DNA of 57,529 bases. Source: an uncultured Chthonomonas sp. GTDB taxonomy: Bacteria > Armatimonadota > Chthonomonadetes > Chthonomonadales > CAJBBX01. The stretch spans positions 1 to 57,529 of the forward strand of contig CAISJD010000110.1 in NCBI GenBank assembly GCA_903885605.1, written 5' to 3'. A program made the translations under genes and the position numbers. Below the pieces are notes generated by a model. That model worked only from the letters and a program-made list of their open reading frames with translations, was not told the DNA's origin and did no database searches. The stretch's first letter is position 1. Every line of letters starts with the position of its first letter. Below are positions 1 through 9,063 of the stretch, piece by piece.

Positions 1-805
1 CCATCCGATACACTTGCCGAGAAGGACCAGGAGCCAGTCTATTCGTTGGGTAGACCGGGCAGGCATCCATCCGATACACTGTCGATGTGCGTCGGTGGCT
101 CGGGGATGTGGTTGGGTAGACCGGGCAGGCATCCATCCGATACACTTGGGCGCCATCGCTGGACTGACTATGAGGTGTTGGGTAGACCGGGCAGGCATCC
201 ATCCGATACACTCTGTGAACAGCGCGGCGTGCCTATCGTCTGGTTGGGTAGACCGGGCAGGCATCCATCCGATACACTTCTCATCCAACAGCGCGGCGTT
301 CGGCTTCAGTTGGGTAGACCGGGCAGGCATCCATCCGATACACTGCGTGTGCTCAGCGGCATGGCGTGGGTGACGTTGGGTAGACCGGGCAGGCATCCAT
401 CCGATACACTCCTCTCCGCGTGCGAATGCGTTTAGCTTGGGTTGGGTAGACCGGGCAGGCATCCATCCGATACACTGTTCGTTCATGTCGCCCCTCCCCC
501 TGCGTGGTTGGGTAGACCGGGCAGGCATCCATCCGATACACTCTGCCTTCGTAGCATTGTCCAGCTGGCCGGTTGGGTAGACCGGGCAGGCATCCATCCG
601 ATACACTGGAGGTGCAGAGTGAACGACGAACCTGGCTGTTGGGTAGACCGGGCAGGCATCCATCCGATACACTGCCCATGGGCAGGGCTCCTCGCCCCGT
701 CCGGTTGGGTAGACCGGGCAGGCATCCATCCGATACACTATAGGCAATCGCACAGCCGACGGTCAGGCGGTTGGGTAGACCGGGCAGGCATCCATCCGAT
801 ACACT
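1..805 (+). CRISPR. Type II-C CRISPR array, truncated at left edge
   Basis: Twelve identical 36-nt repeats start at 45, 111, 177, 243, 309, 375, 441, 507, 572, 638, 704 and 770. The last 14 nt of a further repeat lie at 1-14. The 12 spacers are 30 nt each, except 29 nt at 543-571. Repeats begin GTTGGGTAG and end GATACACT, and I saw no degenerate copy. The crRNA strand is plus, because the tracrRNA anti-repeat (5241-5261) is the reverse complement of the repeat's 3' part and CCAAC further on can pair with the repeat's 5' GTTGG. The array therefore reads toward cas2, convergent with the cas operon. The upstream end is outside the window. Confidence 0.98.
51..80 (+). promoter_or_regulatory. Candidate promoter embedded in each CRISPR repeat (first full copy shown)
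   Basis: Repeat positions 7-12 read TAGACC (4 of 6 to TTGACA) and positions 31-36 read TACACT (4 of 6 to TATAAT), separated by 18 nt. The same TACACT is the -10 of the tracrRNA promoter. If active, each repeat would start transcription about 7 nt into the following spacer, as known for Neisseria meningitidis II-C arrays. This is inference from sequence only. Confidence 0.45.
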
Positions 806-856: not shown

Positions 857-1162
857 TCAGTAGAACTCGAGCTGGTCCGGCTCTTTTTCTGTCTCCTGCA
901 GGTCCTTGCCCAGGAAGATTTCCATGCGGGCGTACTGCATCTCGGTCAGCGCCAGCAGCCGCACCTCTCCCTCCGGCGGCAGCATCGACTTCACCCGCTC
1001 GGTGTGCACCCGCACATTGTCGTCATTGGGGCAGGGCCGACCGTAGACGCTGAACTGCAGCATCATGAACCCGTCGTCGATGAGACCGCGGCGGAACCGG
1101 GCGTAGTTGCGGCGCGATTTCTTGTCCGTCACCGGCAGGTCGAACAACGCTAGCAGCCACAT
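857..1162 (-). CDS. cas2: CRISPR-associated endonuclease Cas2
   Basis: This 101-residue Cas2 is the integrase partner that bridges two Cas1 dimers during spacer acquisition. It starts MWLLALFDLPV, the usual first beta strand with the acidic residue of the ferredoxin-like fold, and continues with the expected RRNYARFRRGL helix and a GRPCPND segment. I chose the ATG at 1162 because GGAGGAG sits about 9 nt upstream; an in-frame ATG at 1198 would overlap cas1 and lacks that signal. It is the last gene of cas9-cas1-cas2, 20 nt after cas1. Its stop lies 51 bp from the array. No csn2 or cas4 is present, which fits subtype II-C. Confidence 0.95.
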   Translation of the reverse strand: MWLLALFDLPVTDKKSRRNYARFRRGLIDDGFMMLQFSVYGRPCPNDDNVRVHTERVKSMLPPEGEVRLLALTEMQYARMEIFLGKDLQETEKEPDQLEFY

Positions 1163-1182
1163 AGCGCGCGCTCCTCCGTAGG

Positions 1183-2073
1183 TCAGGGTTCGGGGCATGG
1201 CAGGGCCTCATCGTCGCCGGCGATGCGTCGGCGCAGGGCGGCGGCATAGTTGGGCAGGGCGGCCGTCAGCGGGTACCGCTTGCCCTCCCATCCCACGCTC
1301 TCGGTGAGCAGGGCCACCATGGCCCGGCGCACCGGTGTGGGCAGCCCCTCGCCCTCGGGCAGATCGGCCCGCAGGCCCAGCGCCAGCCGGTCCACCAGCG
1401 GGCGCAGGGGCTCCATGGCGTCGTCGGCCAGCGCGAAGGCGTCGTACTGGCTCCGGTGGTGTACGCCCAGGGCCGGGTGGAGCCCCGCGCCCACCAGCGC
1501 GCGGGCCACCGCCGCCCGCAGCACGGCGTAACCGTAGTTGAGGAGGGCGTTGAGGCCCGGCGCCTCGTGGTCGCGCTTGAACCCCCTCCCGAAGAGCGCC
1601 GTGAAGTAGAGCCGTGCCGCCTGGGCCTCCACGTTGCCGGCGTCGTCGCTGCGCACGGCGCGCGAGAGCGCCAGCAGCCCCTTGTCCGTCCCCTTCTCGG
1701 CCTTGAGCAGGGCGGCCTGGGCGGCGACTTTGGCACGGATGATGGTCTGCCACACCTGCTTGCGCCGGGGCACACTCGCCTCGATCTGCGAACGCAGCGT
1801 GGCGGCGTGGAGTGTGCTGCCGGCCAGGGGCAGCATGAGCCCGGCGGGCATGTGCCGGGCGTCGGCCACCACCAGGGCCGCCCCCTGCTCGGCCAGGGCG
1901 GCGAGCAGGGGGCTGGTGACCGTGATGGGCGCGTTGCCGAGCAGGACGATGCCGATGTCCTCTACCGGGATGGTGACCGTGGGCGCGCCCTCGCGCTCCA
2001 GCACCAGTTGCAGGTCGCGGTAGCTCAAGCGGGCGGCCGAGGCGATGTCGACCACGCGGCCCAGGTCAGGCAT
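1183..2073 (-). CDS. cas1: CRISPR-associated integrase Cas1
   Basis: This 296-residue metal-dependent integrase inserts new spacers together with Cas2. The probable active-site residues are present: E149 in NVEAQAARLYF, H205 in GVHHRSQYD and the acidic pair D217/D218 in FALADDAMEP. The N-terminal beta-rich part contains the usual VLLGNAPITVTSPLLAAL segment. Its start overlaps the end of cas9 by 8 bp, which suggests translational coupling. The length is normal for type II Cas1. No reverse transcriptase or other fusion is visible. Confidence 0.96.
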   Translation of the reverse strand: MPDLGRVVDIASAARLSYRDLQLVLEREGAPTVTIPVEDIGIVLLGNAPITVTSPLLAALAEQGAALVVADARHMPAGLMLPLAGSTLHAATLRSQIEASVPRRKQVWQTIIRAKVAAQAALLKAEKGTDKGLLALSRAVRSDDAGNVEAQAARLYFTALFGRGFKRDHEAPGLNALLNYGYAVLRAAVARALVGAGLHPALGVHHRSQYDAFALADDAMEPLRPLVDRLALGLRADLPEGEGLPTPVRRAMVALLTESVGWEGKRYPLTAALPNYAAALRRRIAGDDEALPCPEP

Positions 2074-5000
2074 CCAACGGCTCGGAGGCGATCTCGTCGC
2101 CCAGGGGTCCCAGGCAGACGCGGCGGCGGATGCTGGGCAGCTTAGGGCGGCCCTGGATGCGAAGATCCTGCGGCCTCGACGCGACGGCGCGGATTGGATG
2201 GCGAAGGACCAGCTCGATGGCGCCGCATGTCGAGACCGAGAACGTAGCCACCCTGTAGAGCCCCGGCTTGTCCCCGGTCCACTCCACGATGTCGCTCTTG
2301 CAGAGCGAGAGGACGAAGTCCCAGCCTTCGCGGGCGGGCTGCACCACGGGCTCGCCGTGGGCGGCGCGGCGGGCGGCTTCCATCATGGAGGTCACGGTCA
2401 TGTCGCGCTCCACCTTGCCGTCGGGGCGGGTGCGCTGCCAGATGCAGGCGTGGTGGTTGCTGGCCAGGTCGTAGGCCTTCAGGCCCCGGCCGTCGGGGCC
2501 CAGCACCACCATCCGGCCCTCCACCACCACGGTGGCGGGCAGCTTTCCCGGCGAGGCTCCGGCGGCGGCCAGCGCTGCCGCCACCTTCTCCGGCGCCGGC
2601 GGCGGGTAGGCCGTCTCCTTGTGCAGGGCGCCCTGCACGCTCCGGTTGGTGGCGTGGACCACCGGGGCCCGCTCGATGGCCCGCTCCAGGTCGCCCATGA
2701 GCGTGGGCCAGAGGAGCGGCGGCTCCAGGCGGTCGCGGGGGATGCCCTCCTCCCGGGCCTTGAGCCAGGCGGTCATGCGCTGCAGCGTGCGGATGTCGGT
2801 GAGGGCCGCAAGGATGGCGTCCAGGGCGTGGTGCCGGTGGTCGTGCCGGGGCTTCTCGTTCTTCTTCACCGGGGCCTCGCGCCAGCGGACCAGCTTCTCC
2901 TTCTCCTCGTCATCGATGGGCACGCAGTGGCCGAGCTCCCAGAGCGAGCGGAGCTGCGCGGTGATCTGCCCCCGCGAGACCTCCACGGGCACGCCCAGCT
3001 TCGCCACCTCCTTCTTGATCGCCGACGAGAGGTAGCGCGTGTCGGACAGGGCGCGGTTGGTGAAGCCCTCGGCGTCGTAGGCCTCGGCCAGGAGGCGGCT
3101 CCGCTTGCCCGGCGACATCCCGCGCAATGACCGGACGTAGCGGCACATGTGGTCCCACCGCTCGCCCCTGCCGATCCACTCGAACGGGGTGGAGTTGCCC
3201 TTCTGCAGGTTGAGGCCCCGCGGGCAGATGGTCTTGTTGACCCACGAGTCGTCCCAGCAGCGGCTGCGCGGCACGATGTGCTCCACGTCGTAGTCGTTGA
3301 GCAGCTCCTGGATACCCACCATGCGGTCGGGCTCGTAGGGGCACCTCATGCCGGCCTCCTCCCAGAGCAGCACCTTCTCCACGGCCCGCGAGAGGACGAT
3401 GGAGGCGCCGCGCGGCGTGGCTTCGCCCTGGGCGATGTCGGGCTTGTTCTCCAGCACCTTCTTCTCGGCCTGCTTGCGGTCTCGGGCGCGTTTGTCCTGG
3501 TCGCGCCACATCTGCTCGCGCTGCTTGTTCGTCCGCGAGACGTCGCGGGGGAGCTCGATGCGGATGGTGGTGGGCTTGCCGTACCTGTCGATGACCGCGT
3601 TGATGACCCGGAAGGCCATCTTCACGGAGCGCTGCACCACGGGGTTGCGCAGGTCCGGCGCGGCGTCCAGGCGATCCAGCGGCTTGTCGACCACGGCCAC
3701 GGTGCTGGTGTTGGCCTCGCGGTACCCGGCCGCCTCGCAGGCCTCGCTGTAGACCAGGCCCTGCCGCAAGTGGGGCTCCAGGTCGGCCCAGACGCGGCGG
3801 CAGTGGTTGGTGTATCCCTCGGAGAGGGGCGCCGAGGCGGCAGCTCGCACCTGGTCGGGCGTGAACCCGAAGCGCCGGCGCAGGCCCCGTGCCACGTCGG
3901 CCAGGCTGTGCGCGTGGAGGAGGAGGGCCACCATCTCCTCCTTGCCCTCGGGCTCCAGGTCCGACCAGCCGTCGCCCAGCGAGGCGCGGAGGGCGGAGGC
4001 GGTGCGGTTGCCCAGGATATCGCCGCGCGTGCGCTTGCCGGCCTTGCGGCGCTCGGGCTCGTCGCTGAACCGGGCGCCGAGGGGCATGAAGGCCACCTGG
4101 CGCGCCTCCTCCCAGGTGAGGCTGTCGCGGTGCTCCAGCGCGTCGGCCAGCGCGGTCACCTCGTCGCCCGTCAGGCGGCGCGGGCCGGCGCCCTTCTGGT
4201 CCACCACCGTCAGGTTCACGAGGGTCTGGAGCACGCTGGTGCGCTGGGCAAGCAGTTCGGCCCGGGCAAGCCGCTTGCGGGCGGGCAGGAACTCGCAGCC
4301 GCCCACGAGCCCCCGCTTGGAGGCCAGGGGCCGCTGGAAGAAGATGGCCGTGCGGACCTCCTCGCGGAGCCCGTCGGTGAGCGCGGCCGGGTGGAACCGG
4401 GCCTGGGCGGCCCAGAGCTTCTCGAACTCCTCCTCCACCAGGAAGCGGTCGGCGCGCCAGCCCAGCAGGTCCTGCTTCTGCTGCCTCGGCTCGCTCCGTT
4501 TGCCCGACGCGCGGACGCCGCCGGGAAAGGCGCCGGGATCGGCCAGGCGCAGGGCGCAGAACTCGCCGATGGTGCGGGCGGCCCCGGCCTCGATCTGTTC
4601 GCGCACCTCCTTCAGGCGGCCCAGGAGCGCCGAGGTCTCCTTGTCGGCGGCCTTGCCCTCCTCGCCGGGCTCCTCGGCCTCGAGGTCGGCGGCGGCGCGC
4701 TGGAGCGTGGGGAGCTGCTTCTCCAGGTGCAGGTGCATCAGGTCGCGGGTGCTGATGTAGCCCCGGCGTCGGCAGATGTGGTGCAGGCAGCGGCCCAGCT
4801 CGTGGAGCGTCAGCTCCTCGTCAAGCCCCCTCTGCCGGAGCATGAAGGGGTGGAAGGGCCGCTTGCCGGGCTCGCCGCCGGCGGGCCGGTCGCGGCTCAG
4901 CAGCCGGTCGCGCTCCTCCTTCTCGGCGGGCAGCAGGCCGTGCGCCACGAGCAGCTTGAGCAGGGCGGCCATGCGCTGCCGCTTGCGCCGGACCTGGATG

Positions 5001-5191
5001 CGCATGCGGCGCTTCTGCCCGCGCTTCTGCCGGTTCGACCTAAAGAGCCCTGTCCCCTGCTCCAGCTCGCCCGGTTCGGGGTAGACGTACGACCCGGCCT
5101 CCACGGTGGGCGTGTCGTCCGGCCCCTCCCGCTGGACCACCGCCCATCCCACGCTGTTCACACCAAGATCCAACCCCAGGATCGTCTCCAC
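2066..5191 (-). CDS. cas9: Cas9 RNA-guided endonuclease, compact type II-C
   Basis: This is a 1041-residue effector nuclease guided by crRNA:tracrRNA. RuvC-I is at the N terminus (D8 in GLDLGVNSVGW), followed by an arginine-rich bridge helix near residues 53-75. RuvC-II has E546 (IRIELPRD). The HNH domain has H638 (DVEHIVPRS) and N661, equivalent to the SpCas9 H840/N863 pair by motif. RuvC-III has H787, H788 and D791 (HHALDA). All catalytic positions look intact. The last ~230 residues are the wedge/PAM-interacting region. I prefer a GTG start at 5191: its reverse-strand leader has GAGGGAGG about 8 nt upstream, whereas ATGs at 5212 and 5233 lack a ribosome site and overlap the tracrRNA promoter. 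The small size and the cas9-cas1-cas2 set without csn2 indicate II-C. Confidence 0.97.
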   Translation of the reverse strand: METILGLDLGVNSVGWAVVQREGPDDTPTVEAGSYVYPEPGELEQGTGLFRSNRQKRGQKRRMRIQVRRKRQRMAALLKLLVAHGLLPAEKEERDRLLSRDRPAGGEPGKRPFHPFMLRQRGLDEELTLHELGRCLHHICRRRGYISTRDLMHLHLEKQLPTLQRAAADLEAEEPGEEGKAADKETSALLGRLKEVREQIEAGAARTIGEFCALRLADPGAFPGGVRASGKRSEPRQQKQDLLGWRADRFLVEEEFEKLWAAQARFHPAALTDGLREEVRTAIFFQRPLASKRGLVGGCEFLPARKRLARAELLAQRTSVLQTLVNLTVVDQKGAGPRRLTGDEVTALADALEHRDSLTWEEARQVAFMPLGARFSDEPERRKAGKRTRGDILGNRTASALRASLGDGWSDLEPEGKEEMVALLLHAHSLADVARGLRRRFGFTPDQVRAAASAPLSEGYTNHCRRVWADLEPHLRQGLVYSEACEAAGYREANTSTVAVVDKPLDRLDAAPDLRNPVVQRSVKMAFRVINAVIDRYGKPTTIRIELPRDVSRTNKQREQMWRDQDKRARDRKQAEKKVLENKPDIAQGEATPRGASIVLSRAVEKVLLWEEAGMRCPYEPDRMVGIQELLNDYDVEHIVPRSRCWDDSWVNKTICPRGLNLQKGNSTPFEWIGRGERWDHMCRYVRSLRGMSPGKRSRLLAEAYDAEGFTNRALSDTRYLSSAIKKEVAKLGVPVEVSRGQITAQLRSLWELGHCVPIDDEEKEKLVRWREAPVKKNEKPRHDHRHHALDAILAALTDIRTLQRMTAWLKAREEGIPRDRLEPPLLWPTLMGDLERAIERAPVVHATNRSVQGALHKETAYPPPAPEKVAAALAAAGASPGKLPATVVVEGRMVVLGPDGRGLKAYDLASNHHACIWQRTRPDGKVERDMTVTSMMEAARRAAHGEPVVQPAREGWDFVLSLCKSDIVEWTGDKPGLYRVATFSVSTCGAIELVLRHPIRAVASRPQDLRIQGRPKLPSIRRRVCLGPLGDEIASEPLDA

Positions 5192-5205: not shown

Positions 5206-5234
5206 TTGACATTGGCAAGAACCGACGGTACACT
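5206..5234 (+). promoter_or_regulatory. tracrRNA promoter
   Basis: A perfect -35 TTGACA (5206-5211) is followed by 17 nt and -10 TACACT (5229-5234). Initiation is predicted near 5241, exactly where the anti-repeat begins. This is the best sigma70-type promoter I can see in the window. Confidence 0.85.
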
Positions 5235-5238
5235 CATC

Positions 5239-5244
5239 ATTGTA
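5239..5244 (-). promoter_or_regulatory. Candidate cas9 operon -10 box within the anti-repeat
   Basis: On the minus strand the anti-repeat reads like the array repeat but ends TACAAT instead of TACACT, a 5-of-6 match to TATAAT. Initiation would fall near 5232 and give a ~41-nt leader before the cas9 GTG. No good -35 is visible. The site overlaps the divergent tracrRNA start. This is inference. Confidence 0.4.
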
Positions 5245-5366
5245 TCGGATGGATGCCTGCCTGAGTCCTCCAACAAGGATCTTAGATCCGCAGGCTGGGC
5301 CTCACCGCCCACCCGTCAGGTCCTCACCGGACCGAAGCGAAAGAGCCCCCGCAAGGGGGCTTTTTC
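5241..5366 (+). ncRNA. tracrRNA
   Basis: About 125 nt. The anti-repeat at 5241-5261 is a perfect complement of 21 nt of the repeat's 3' part. A mismatched bulge follows, then CCAAC (5270-5274) pairs with the repeat's 5' GTTGG to form the lower stem. A nexus-like hairpin follows at once (GGATC-TTA-GATCC, 5277-5289), then TGGGC/GCCCA (5296-5311), GGTCC/GGACC (5319-5333) and the terminator hairpin (5344-5361). It is transcribed away from cas9 and supplies the scaffold for crRNA loading. Confidence 0.93.
5344..5366 (+). terminator. Rho-independent terminator of tracrRNA
   Basis: AGCCCCC-GCAA-GGGGGCT is a 7-bp GC stem with a tetraloop, followed by TTTTTC. The stem is perfect and sits at the expected 3' end of the tracrRNA. 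Confidence 0.95.
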
Positions 5367-5453
5367 GTTAGTGGGCCACCCACGGCGTTACTATCGCGGC
5401 GTCGCCCGAACCGGAAAGCCCGAACTCACGCCCGCCTCCCTTCGCCCCGGCCG

Positions 5454-5483
5454 TTGGCTTCATGGCCCCCTGCGGCGTACACT
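5454..5483 (+). promoter_or_regulatory. Promoter of sugar transport operon, possibly giving a leaderless mRNA
   Basis: TTGGCT (5454-5459), 18 nt, then TACACT (5478-5483). Initiation would fall near 5490, at or just before the ATG at 5493, so the permease may be translated from a leaderless or nearly leaderless message. The -10 hexamer equals that of the tracrRNA promoter and the CRISPR repeats. Confidence 0.6.
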
Positions 5484-5492
5484 ATGGGAGCT

Positions 5493-6497
5493 ATGCAGCG
5501 GACCCCTGAACAGGCATCCATCGTTCGATGTACGCCGGCGCGGCACGCGCTCTGGCGCGAGGCCGGCGTCTACGCCGTGCTGGCGGGGCTCTACGTGGCC
5601 CTCGCCGTCTGGGAGCCCTCGTTCCGTGGGTGGGTTAACTTCCGCAACGTCCTCACGCAGATCTCCATGGTCGCGATCGTGGCCGTGGGCATGACCGCCG
5701 TCATCATCTCCGGCGGCATCGACCTCTCGGTGGGCTCCGTGGCGGCGCTGGCGGCCTGCGTGCCCGCCGTGCTCATGTCGCACCACGGCTGGGGCGGAGG
5801 CGCGGGCGTGGCGCTGACGCTGGCGCTGGGCGCGGCCCTGGGGCTCCTCAACGGCGCGGCCATCACCTTCGTCGGCCTGCCGCCCTTCATCGCCACGCTG
5901 GCGCTCATGGTCATGGCCCGAGGGCTGGCCTTCGTGGTGAGCGGCGGCGGGGCCATCTACAACCTGCCGGCGGCCTACCTCTGGCCGGGCAGCGGCAACG
6001 TGGCCGAGGGCGTGCCGCTCATCGTCAAGCTCCCCGCCATGGTGGCTCTCATGGCCCTACTCTACGCCGCGGGACACCTGGTGATGCAGCGGACGCGGCT
6101 GGGGCGCTACCTCTACAGCGTCGGCGCCAACGAGGAGGCCTCGCGCCTCTCCGGCGTGCCCACGGTGCGGGTGAAGCTCTTCGGCTACGGGCTCTGCGGC
6201 TTCCTCGCGGGGCTGGCGGGCATGCTCTACACCGGCTACGTGGGGGCCGCCGAGCCGACCATCGGCGACGGGCTGGAGCTGGACGCCATCGCCGCGGTGG
6301 TCATCGGCGGCACGAGCCTGAGCGGAGGGCAGGGCAACCTGCCGGGCACGCTGGCCGGGGCGCTGCTCATCGGCCTGGTGCGGAACGGGCTGAACCTGAT
6401 GCAGGTGAACTCCAACTACCAGCGCGTGGCCATCGGCGGCATCATCTTCGCCGCGGTCACCATCGACATGTTCCAGAAGAGAAGGAGGCGGGTCTGA
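5493..6497 (+). CDS. Sugar ABC transporter permease (RbsC/XylH-type)
   Basis: This 334-residue inner-membrane protein of the BPD_transp_2 family forms the channel of a ribose/xylose-type ABC importer. Typical motifs are GGIDLSVGSVAAL, the EAA-like loop around GLPPFIATLALMVMARG, the SVGANEEASRLSGV loop that contacts the ATPase, and AIAAVVIGGTSLSGGQG near the end. About nine hydrophobic segments are visible. An ATG at 5493 is favoured by the promoter position; an ATG at 5484 touches the -10 box and a TTG at 5454 is part of the -35. The binding protein follows 1 nt after the stop. No ATPase gene accompanies it here, although rbsA-type ATPases normally sit beside such permeases. Confidence 0.9.
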   Translation: MQRTPEQASIVRCTPARHALWREAGVYAVLAGLYVALAVWEPSFRGWVNFRNVLTQISMVAIVAVGMTAVIISGGIDLSVGSVAALAACVPAVLMSHHGWGGGAGVALTLALGAALGLLNGAAITFVGLPPFIATLALMVMARGLAFVVSGGGAIYNLPAAYLWPGSGNVAEGVPLIVKLPAMVALMALLYAAGHLVMQRTRLGRYLYSVGANEEASRLSGVPTVRVKLFGYGLCGFLAGLAGMLYTGYVGAAEPTIGDGLELDAIAAVVIGGTSLSGGQGNLPGTLAGALLIGLVRNGLNLMQVNSNYQRVAIGGIIFAAVTIDMFQKRRRRV

Positions 6498-7494: not shown

Positions 7495-9063
7495 ATGGCC
7501 GGTCGTAGGGATGATCCGTTTGTGCAGGTGTCGGCTTCGCTGGCCGACCTGGTGGGGCGCGCGTTCGTTGACGCGGCCATCGCGGGGCGCTGCCGCCTGA
7601 CCGGCGAGGAGCCCGAAGACCTGGCCGACCTGGCGCTGGGCCCGGTGGACTTCTACCCCACGGACCACCACGAACTGGTGTCTGAAGCCGTGGCGACGGT
7701 GGGCTCCGGCGATCCGCTGCCCGCGCTCGCCTCCTCGGCCCGAGGGGCTTCCACGCGGGCCTTCAACGCCGCCACGCGCACCGCGGCCGCGCCGGTCTCC
7801 ACGCTGGGCTGCGTACGGATCGGCGAGGATGGCCGCTCCTACCTCACCACCAAGTCGGAGCACTACCACGTGCCGCTGGGCCACGAGTTCCCCGGCTTCG
7901 CGCTGCTCGACGTCGCCCGAACGCTGGGCGTCTCCAATGCCACGCACAACAACACCCGCGGCCACATCACGCGGCTGCTGGAGGAGCGGCTCGTCCGCGC
8001 CGCCAACGGCCTCGACCCCTTCGGCGACGACGACCTGGCGCCTATCCTCGCGTCGGAGGAGCCCGACGTCATCAACCGCGTACTCAACCTGCAGACCGGC
8101 AGCCTGGCGGGCGAGGCGGCATTCAAGATGTGCATGGGCCGCTTCTACCTCTCGCAGGAGGGCGCGCGTCCGCCGGAATACGCGGGCAAGACGCCGGTCT
8201 TCCTGGTCATCGCGGATGACGACGGCAAGCCCTGCGGCAACTACCACGGCACCACCGCCTTCGTGCAGGCGTTGCGCGGGCTCTGGCCGGGCCTCTCGGC
8301 GAAGATGGAAGAGCTGGGGCTGATGAAGGTCTGCGCCGTCCGGCCCAACCGGGTGGAGGACCTGGAGGCGGCCTTCGCGCGCTACGAGGGCGGCGAGACG
8401 AAGATCGCGGCCTTCTTCCACGAGATCATCATGATGAACTACGGGGCGCGGGTGCTGACCCCCGAGTTCCTGCACCGCGCCTACGAGCTCTGCGCCGCGC
8501 ACGACGTGCCCACCGTCTGCGACGAGATTCAGAGCTGCCTCTGGGCGCCGGGCCTCTTCCTCTACCGCGAGGTCGGGCTCAAGCCGACCTTCGTCGTGCT
8601 CGGCAAGGGCTTCGGCAACGGCGAGTACGCGGCCTCGAGGCTCCTCTTCAGCGCGGCCATGGATAACCTCTGCCAGTTCGGCGCCCTGGTCACCAACGGG
8701 CAGGAGGAGCTGGCCTCGCTCACCTACCTGGTCAGCATGAAGTGGGCCATGGCCAACGAGGCGCGGCTGCGCGAGACCGGCGACGCCTACGAGGCCGCCC
8801 TGCGTGCGCTGGTGTCCGAGCGCCCCGCTCTGCTGGCCGGTGTCGAGGGGAGCCGCCACTTGTCCGCCCTGCGCTTCCACAACCTGGCCGGCGCGCAGGC
8901 GTTCGTGGCTCGCACCGAGGCCCTGGGCATCGACCTGAGCGTGCAGGCCTACAAGGCCGACTGCCCGCCCATCGTGCTCACGAAGCTGCCGCTCATCGCC
9001 GACGAGGCGCTCATCGACCGGGTCATCGGCCTCCTGCGGCTCGCCCTGGGCCAGAAAGGCTAA
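7495..9063 (+). CDS. PLP-dependent class-III aminotransferase-like protein
   Basis: A 522-residue cytoplasmic enzyme. The class-III signatures are PTVCDEIQSCLWAPG (the Asp that contacts the PLP ring nitrogen) and FVVLGKGFGNGEYAAS, where the lysine in GKG is the probable Schiff-base residue. The 200-residue N-terminal part is longer than in typical ornithine-type aminotransferases and includes a GHEFPGFALLDVARTLGVSN segment. The ATG at 7495 is chosen because GAGGGAGG lies about 8 nt upstream. It is the third gene of the operon, 24 nt after the sugar-binding protein, so it may act on an amino- or keto-sugar. The substrate is unknown. Confidence 0.75.
   Translation: MAGRRDDPFVQVSASLADLVGRAFVDAAIAGRCRLTGEEPEDLADLALGPVDFYPTDHHELVSEAVATVGSGDPLPALASSARGASTRAFNAATRTAAAPVSTLGCVRIGEDGRSYLTTKSEHYHVPLGHEFPGFALLDVARTLGVSNATHNNTRGHITRLLEERLVRAANGLDPFGDDDLAPILASEEPDVINRVLNLQTGSLAGEAAFKMCMGRFYLSQEGARPPEYAGKTPVFLVIADDDGKPCGNYHGTTAFVQALRGLWPGLSAKMEELGLMKVCAVRPNRVEDLEAAFARYEGGETKIAAFFHEIIMMNYGARVLTPEFLHRAYELCAAHDVPTVCDEIQSCLWAPGLFLYREVGLKPTFVVLGKGFGNGEYAASRLLFSAAMDNLCQFGALVTNGQEELASLTYLVSMKWAMANEARLRETGDAYEAALRALVSERPALLAGVEGSRHLSALRFHNLAGAQAFVARTEALGIDLSVQAYKADCPPIVLTKLPLIADEALIDRVIGLLRLALGQKG

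Follow-up and report, generated by a model that had tools for sequence, protein, structure and literature searches.

A -10-like element at the 3' end of the type II-C CRISPR repeats of an uncultured Chthonomonas and its relatives in the phylum

The stretch of DNA analyzed here (the window, 57,529 nucleotides) starts where contig G000:C110 does, inside a CRISPR array that is followed by three cas genes on the opposite strand and by a tracrRNA, with the following features.

1 to 805, plus strand: cas2-proximal end of a CRISPR array, made up of a partial repeat (1-14), a spacer (15-44), and 12 full repeats with 29- to 30-nt spacers; it continues on contig G000:C177
845 to 890 (extent approximate), plus strand: likely terminator of the array transcript, a hairpin followed by a T-run, recognized by a terminator-like core at 869-883 and by its fold; overlaps the end of cas2
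857 to 1198, minus strand: cas2 (TIGR01573)
1183 to 2073, minus strand: cas1, type II (NMENI) family (TIGR03639, E 1e-76)
2066 to 5191, minus strand: cas9, about 1041 aa (TIGR01865, E 2e-146), with a probable GTG start at 5191; the listed open frame runs from 5233
5206 to 5234, plus strand: tracrRNA promoter TTGACA-N17-TACACT, with 10/12 consensus matches
5240 to 5245, minus strand: TACAAT within the anti-repeat, a possible -10 of cas9 that reads toward cas9 and is kept in few relatives
5241 to 5370, plus strand: tracrRNA, with the anti-repeat at 5241-5274 and a T-tailed terminal hairpin

This locus is of type II-C, as it combines cas9, cas1, and cas2 as the sole cas genes with a tracrRNA and an array that points at cas2. 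Judged by gene spacing rather than by a profile, the three genes leave no space for a csn2 or cas4, and the gap between array and cas2 measures 51 nt. Pairing with the tracrRNA anti-repeat sets the direction of the repeat, such that the array is read toward cas2 and opposite to the cas genes, an orientation that has been reported as the rule for II-C systems and that recurs in those relatives in which one contig carries both the array and the cas genes. The repeat:tracrRNA duplex, in which nearly the whole repeat is paired, has a predicted energy of -64 kcal/mol, in line with a II-C tracrRNA. The window Cas9 scored 136.9 bits against the Cas9d model (NF049971), below its curated cutoff of 375, and an Rfam scan of the window returned no matches. 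The initial annotation, which had placed the array in a II-C setting and likened it to that of Neisseria meningitidis, was right in this respect.

The array holds 12 identical, full-length 36-nt repeats (GTTGGGTAGACCGGGCAGGCATCCATCCGATACACT) within window positions 45-805, starting at 45, 111, 177, 243, 309, 375, 441, 507, 572, 638, 704, and 770, with a period of 66 nt and a single exception of 65 nt. Window positions 1-14 are the 3' tail of one further repeat, and since a further eight identical copies lie on contig G000:C177 together with the far flank of the array, we infer that the repeats of both contigs belong to one array. All 12 full repeats contain the arrangement TAGACC-N18-TACACT that the initial annotation had read as a promoter within each repeat, and its two halves lie as follows.

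51 to 56 and the same offset in the other repeats, plus strand: -35-like TAGACC, which relatives do not conserve
75-80, 141-146, 207-212, 273-278, 339-344, 405-410, 471-476, 537-542, 602-607, 668-673, 734-739, and 800-805, plus strand: -10-like TACACT, identified from sequence, with the pattern TANANT kept in 27 of the 28 loci compared across the phylum

TAGACC agrees with TTGACA, and TACACT with TATAAT, at four of six positions each, and the resulting total of 8/12 lies below the 9/12 cut of our promoter scan, which is why the scan does not flag the repeat. Among shuffled repeats, 0.9% reach 8/12 at any place and 0.055% at the fixed 3' place. Taken alone, this match in a single sequence is modest evidence; the comparison with relatives is much stronger and backs the -10 half only.

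TACACT also occurs in the two neighboring promoters in which it had been noticed before, namely that of the tracrRNA and a candidate one, TTGGCT-N18-TACACT at 5454-5483, which precedes a permease gene and is conserved in the congeneric genome G002. A promoter scan of the tracrRNA stretch returned two promoter-like sites against 0.1 expected. The candidate permease promoter sits immediately before an ATG; its start would fall downstream of that codon, so that the permease may instead begin at the ATG at 5493. As a reference for this genome, we used the promoters of 27 tRNA units, 17 of which score at least 9/12 compared with none of 26 background windows. Their -10 varies at the third and fifth bases and also at the first, and TACACT is absent among the best promoter matches of the 27 units, suggesting that it may be a weak promoter element.

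When 291 genomes of the phylum were searched for Cas9, 48 gave some match, many of them very weak, and 31 stretches were taken from relatives. Together with the window these make 32 loci, of which 28 (window included) yielded a repeat; L042, L046, L072, and L073 had no array in hand and stand outside the repeat count, and the outgroup loci L010 to L013, two of which had arrays, stand outside all counts for the phylum. The sampled Cas9 proteins are diverse, with a median pairwise identity of 28%. Changes in the repeat were counted on a Cas9 tree built from full proteins, with L050 and L063 included at full length; the L065 Cas9 is an incomplete protein with unknown bases. By eye, the 3' flanks of many relatives (e.g., L047, L053, L054, L059, L063, and L064) show a hairpin-forming inverted repeat directly after the last repeat, its sequence differing each time.

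The repeat ends in TANANT (positions 31-36) in 27 of the 28 loci, compared with an average of 0.065 for shuffled repeats. The hexamers are TACACT in 12 loci, TACAAT and TATAAT in five each, TAAACT in three, and TATACT in two, with CACAGC in L045 as the exception. Positions 31, 32, 34, and 36 together account for two changes on the Cas9 tree, against a column mean of 5.25, and 10 of 58,905 quartets of columns are as stable, a rank to be read with the fact that these columns were picked as the -10 core after the data had been seen. Variation is concentrated at positions 33 (C, T, or A) and 35 (C or A, plus one G), which correspond to the third and fifth -10 bases that also vary in the tRNA promoters of this genome. 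Two bases before the hexamer, at position 29, a G is found in 27 of 28 repeats, and position 28 is a T in 12 of 28, a pattern that in these sequences is an extended -10 tendency; the extended element of the window reads CGATACACT, and the triplet that precedes TANANT in the relatives is mostly TGA, AGA, or TGC. Of 20 control loci of the phylum, 13 gave a type I-C repeat; each of these ends in ATTGAAAC, one of them read with an extra C, and none ends in TANANT. By this comparison of sequences, the repeats do end in a real -10-like hexamer, as would be expected of promoters carried by repeats.

The -35 half fared differently. Columns 8 to 10, which lie inside TAGACC, changed 10, 10, and 15 times, which places them with the fastest-changing columns of the repeat, and hexamers that reach 4/6 at N16 to N18 occur in 2 of 84 trials (28 repeats at three spacings) versus 2.4 expected. 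TAGACC is not conserved as a -35, and the sequences do not support it as a general one. It may nevertheless act as a weak, lineage-specific -35 in this genome, given that its tRNA promoters most often have the spacing N18 (12 of 17) and that TAGAC is one base apart from TTGAC. Thus, comparison with related II-C repeats, which the initial annotation had suggested as a check, leaves standing the part of its proposal that concerns a -10 at the 3' end, kept for reasons other than tracrRNA pairing, and not the part that made TAGACC a -35 of general use.

Could the 3' end of the repeat be conserved as the site at which Cas1-Cas2 inserts new spacers rather than as a promoter? Spacer acquisition in II-C arrays has been reported to occur at the 3' end, after the last repeat, the end at which the hexamer lies (PMC12638026, PMC12080349, in the parts of these papers available to us); moreover, the 5' end of the repeat, GTTGGGG, is likewise conserved. 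With insertion at that end, the first repeat of an array should neither receive new spacers nor contribute to a crRNA. First repeats are mutated in 9 of the 16 arrays that could be judged, a number limited by arrays that end at contig ends, and the changes fall mainly in the 5' half. Yet eight of these nine oldest, 5'-most repeats keep TANANT. The exception, L069, was scored on a deletion-bearing copy that inflates its mutations, and its two oldest repeats have damaged hexamers (TTTAAT and TATAAC); in L052 and L070, whole blocks of the first repeat have changed, which may reflect truncation instead of selection on single bases. The last repeat of an array needs no promoter, and 1 of 28 last repeats, that of L048, differs from its consensus, precisely in the hexamer, which is hard to reconcile with an insertion site there. 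The changes that are allowed also follow the tolerance of a -10. Insertion as the explanation in place of a promoter thus appears quite unlikely, and, as far as these sequences indicate, hexamer conservation is probably not due to integration alone, while promoter and integration constraints may act together.

If transcription instead gave a single long precursor of the array, begun at an upstream leader or arising by read-through, with the hexamer unused, the conservation of the hexamer would be left unexplained, and we consider this very unlikely. The case that speaks for it is the sister locus L045 (G007:C31, 3943-5177), whose 19 repeats all end in CACAGC and have no -10, whose Cas9 has an open frame with 51% identity to the window Cas9, and whose array begins 11 nt past the stop of a co-directional 461-aa frame, so that read-through is possible there. 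However, L049, with its array 9 nt behind a co-directional gene, has kept the hexamer. Co-directional open frames are also found near the arrays of L054 and L071 (29 and 53 nt away), so that placement behind such a gene is not decisive as an explanation for the loss of the -10 in L045. On G000:C177, scanning the array's far flank gave no promoter-like site, which counts as weak evidence against a leader promoter because the same scan also misses the repeat.

That the 3' end of the repeat is conserved through pairing with the tracrRNA anti-repeat is extremely unlikely, since the anti-repeats, although they agree well with the repeat through the greater part of its 3' half (identity at positions 20-33 in 21 to 27 of 27 loci, L052 being left out of this count for want of a recognizable anti-repeat, with 8/14 of the core), drift at positions 34, 35, and 36 (identity in 14, 8, and 7 of 27 loci), while the repeats hold their commonest base there in 28, 17, and 27 of 28 loci (A34 in 28/28 and T36 in 27/28). 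Judged by these alignments, pairing is largely refuted as the explanation for positions 34-36 and may hold for 31-33.

The anti-repeat carries a -10-like hexamer of its own. In this genus, its TACAAT (5245-5240, minus strand), a slightly stronger copy of the putative repeat promoter, might conceivably drive cas9, such that one CRISPR-derived element would serve both guides and Cas9 and the tracrRNA and cas9 promoters would overlap and be mutually exclusive; we regard this as unlikely. The same TACAAT is kept beside a cas9 remnant in the congener G002. As a rule for the whole phylum, the anti-repeat was rejected as the cas9 promoter, for TANANT is kept in 3 and lost in 20 of 23 cas9-facing anti-repeats. 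At L073 (G002:C124, 7600-8400), about 33 cas9 residues were matched beside the kept anti-repeat (near 7900), and this is apparently a collapsed CRISPR locus of that congener. In L066, L068, L069, and L070, the anti-repeat is flipped relative to cas9, and the repeats have a perfect TATAAT.

Our results lead us to propose, with considerable confidence, that each repeat ends in a sigma-70-type, extended -10-like promoter and that every spacer would be transcribed on its own. RNA polymerase would use the -10 element at the end of each repeat and initiate about 7 nt inside the next spacer, giving each spacer its own transcript and a guide of about 23 to 24 nt whose 5' end would need no cutting. The downstream repeat would then pair with the tracrRNA transcribed next to cas9, and the 3' end of the crRNA would be finished by Cas9 and, in a step presumed here, by RNase III. 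A start-site preference that could be read in the spacers themselves was rejected, as purines make up 50% of bases at spacer nucleotide 7 and 49% overall (327 spacers; z 0.5), with no preference evident where one might have left a trace. This result, the modest match of the window repeat taken singly, the unconserved -35, the sister locus L045 with its lost -10, and the damaged hexamers of L069 speak against the proposal.

Promoters in II-C repeats are already established, and what is new here is their probable extension to a little-studied bacterial group. Zhang et al. in 2013 reportedly found promoters in the II-C repeats of N. meningitidis. That system, as far as the accounts available to us describe it, resembles the one proposed here in having a promoter per repeat, 5' ends independent of processing, and an array opposite to the cas genes, and is unlike it in that the proof there is experimental, while ours draws on sequence only; the likeness concerns the features just named. 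For the II-C system of Campylobacter jejuni, the sections of the report at hand describe individual -10 boxes in the repeats, detected by differential RNA-seq (PMC3656092). It shares with the present locus a -10 in the 3' part of the repeat, crRNA starts within the spacer (predicted here), a minimal cas9-cas1-cas2 set, a tracrRNA, and RNase III (presumed here); it differs in the differential RNA-seq behind it (PMC3656092), whereas the promoter of the present locus is deduced from sequence and its genome is a high-GC one from another phylum. In the II-C system of Clostridium cellulolyticum, the last nine bases of the repeat resemble an extended -10, and the crRNAs carry 23 to 26 nt of spacer, near the length predicted here (PMC7038990). 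The available portion of that report claims no -35 and has the small RNAs sequenced in a heterologous host, and because it describes the case as an extended -10, a -35 is not a required feature (PMC7038990). A putative repeat-borne promoter of another kind, with a TTG motif, appears in excerpts on Flavobacterium (PMC8092290, PMC10309648).

The bias seen in our first repeats has likewise been published. In a survey of more than 650 II-C systems, the first repeat is mutated mainly in its first 15 nt, a bias given for 357 to 364 II-C arrays, and the first repeat is said to need its promoter (PMC12080349). Its mutation bias is the same as that found here; unlike our analysis, the survey, in the extracts available, includes no anti-repeat control for conservation at the last bases of the repeat (PMC12080349).

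A literature search under the names Armatimonadota and Fimbriimonad gave nothing on repeat promoters among the matches listed. Our findings would thus extend repeat-borne promoters to the II-C loci of a phylum that was untreated in the literature found, a name-based search not being conclusive. The anti-repeat serves as a natural control, indicating that the last three bases of the repeat are kept for something besides pairing. L045, a whole array that has lost the element, is a natural exception that can help in finding out how an array of this kind is read.
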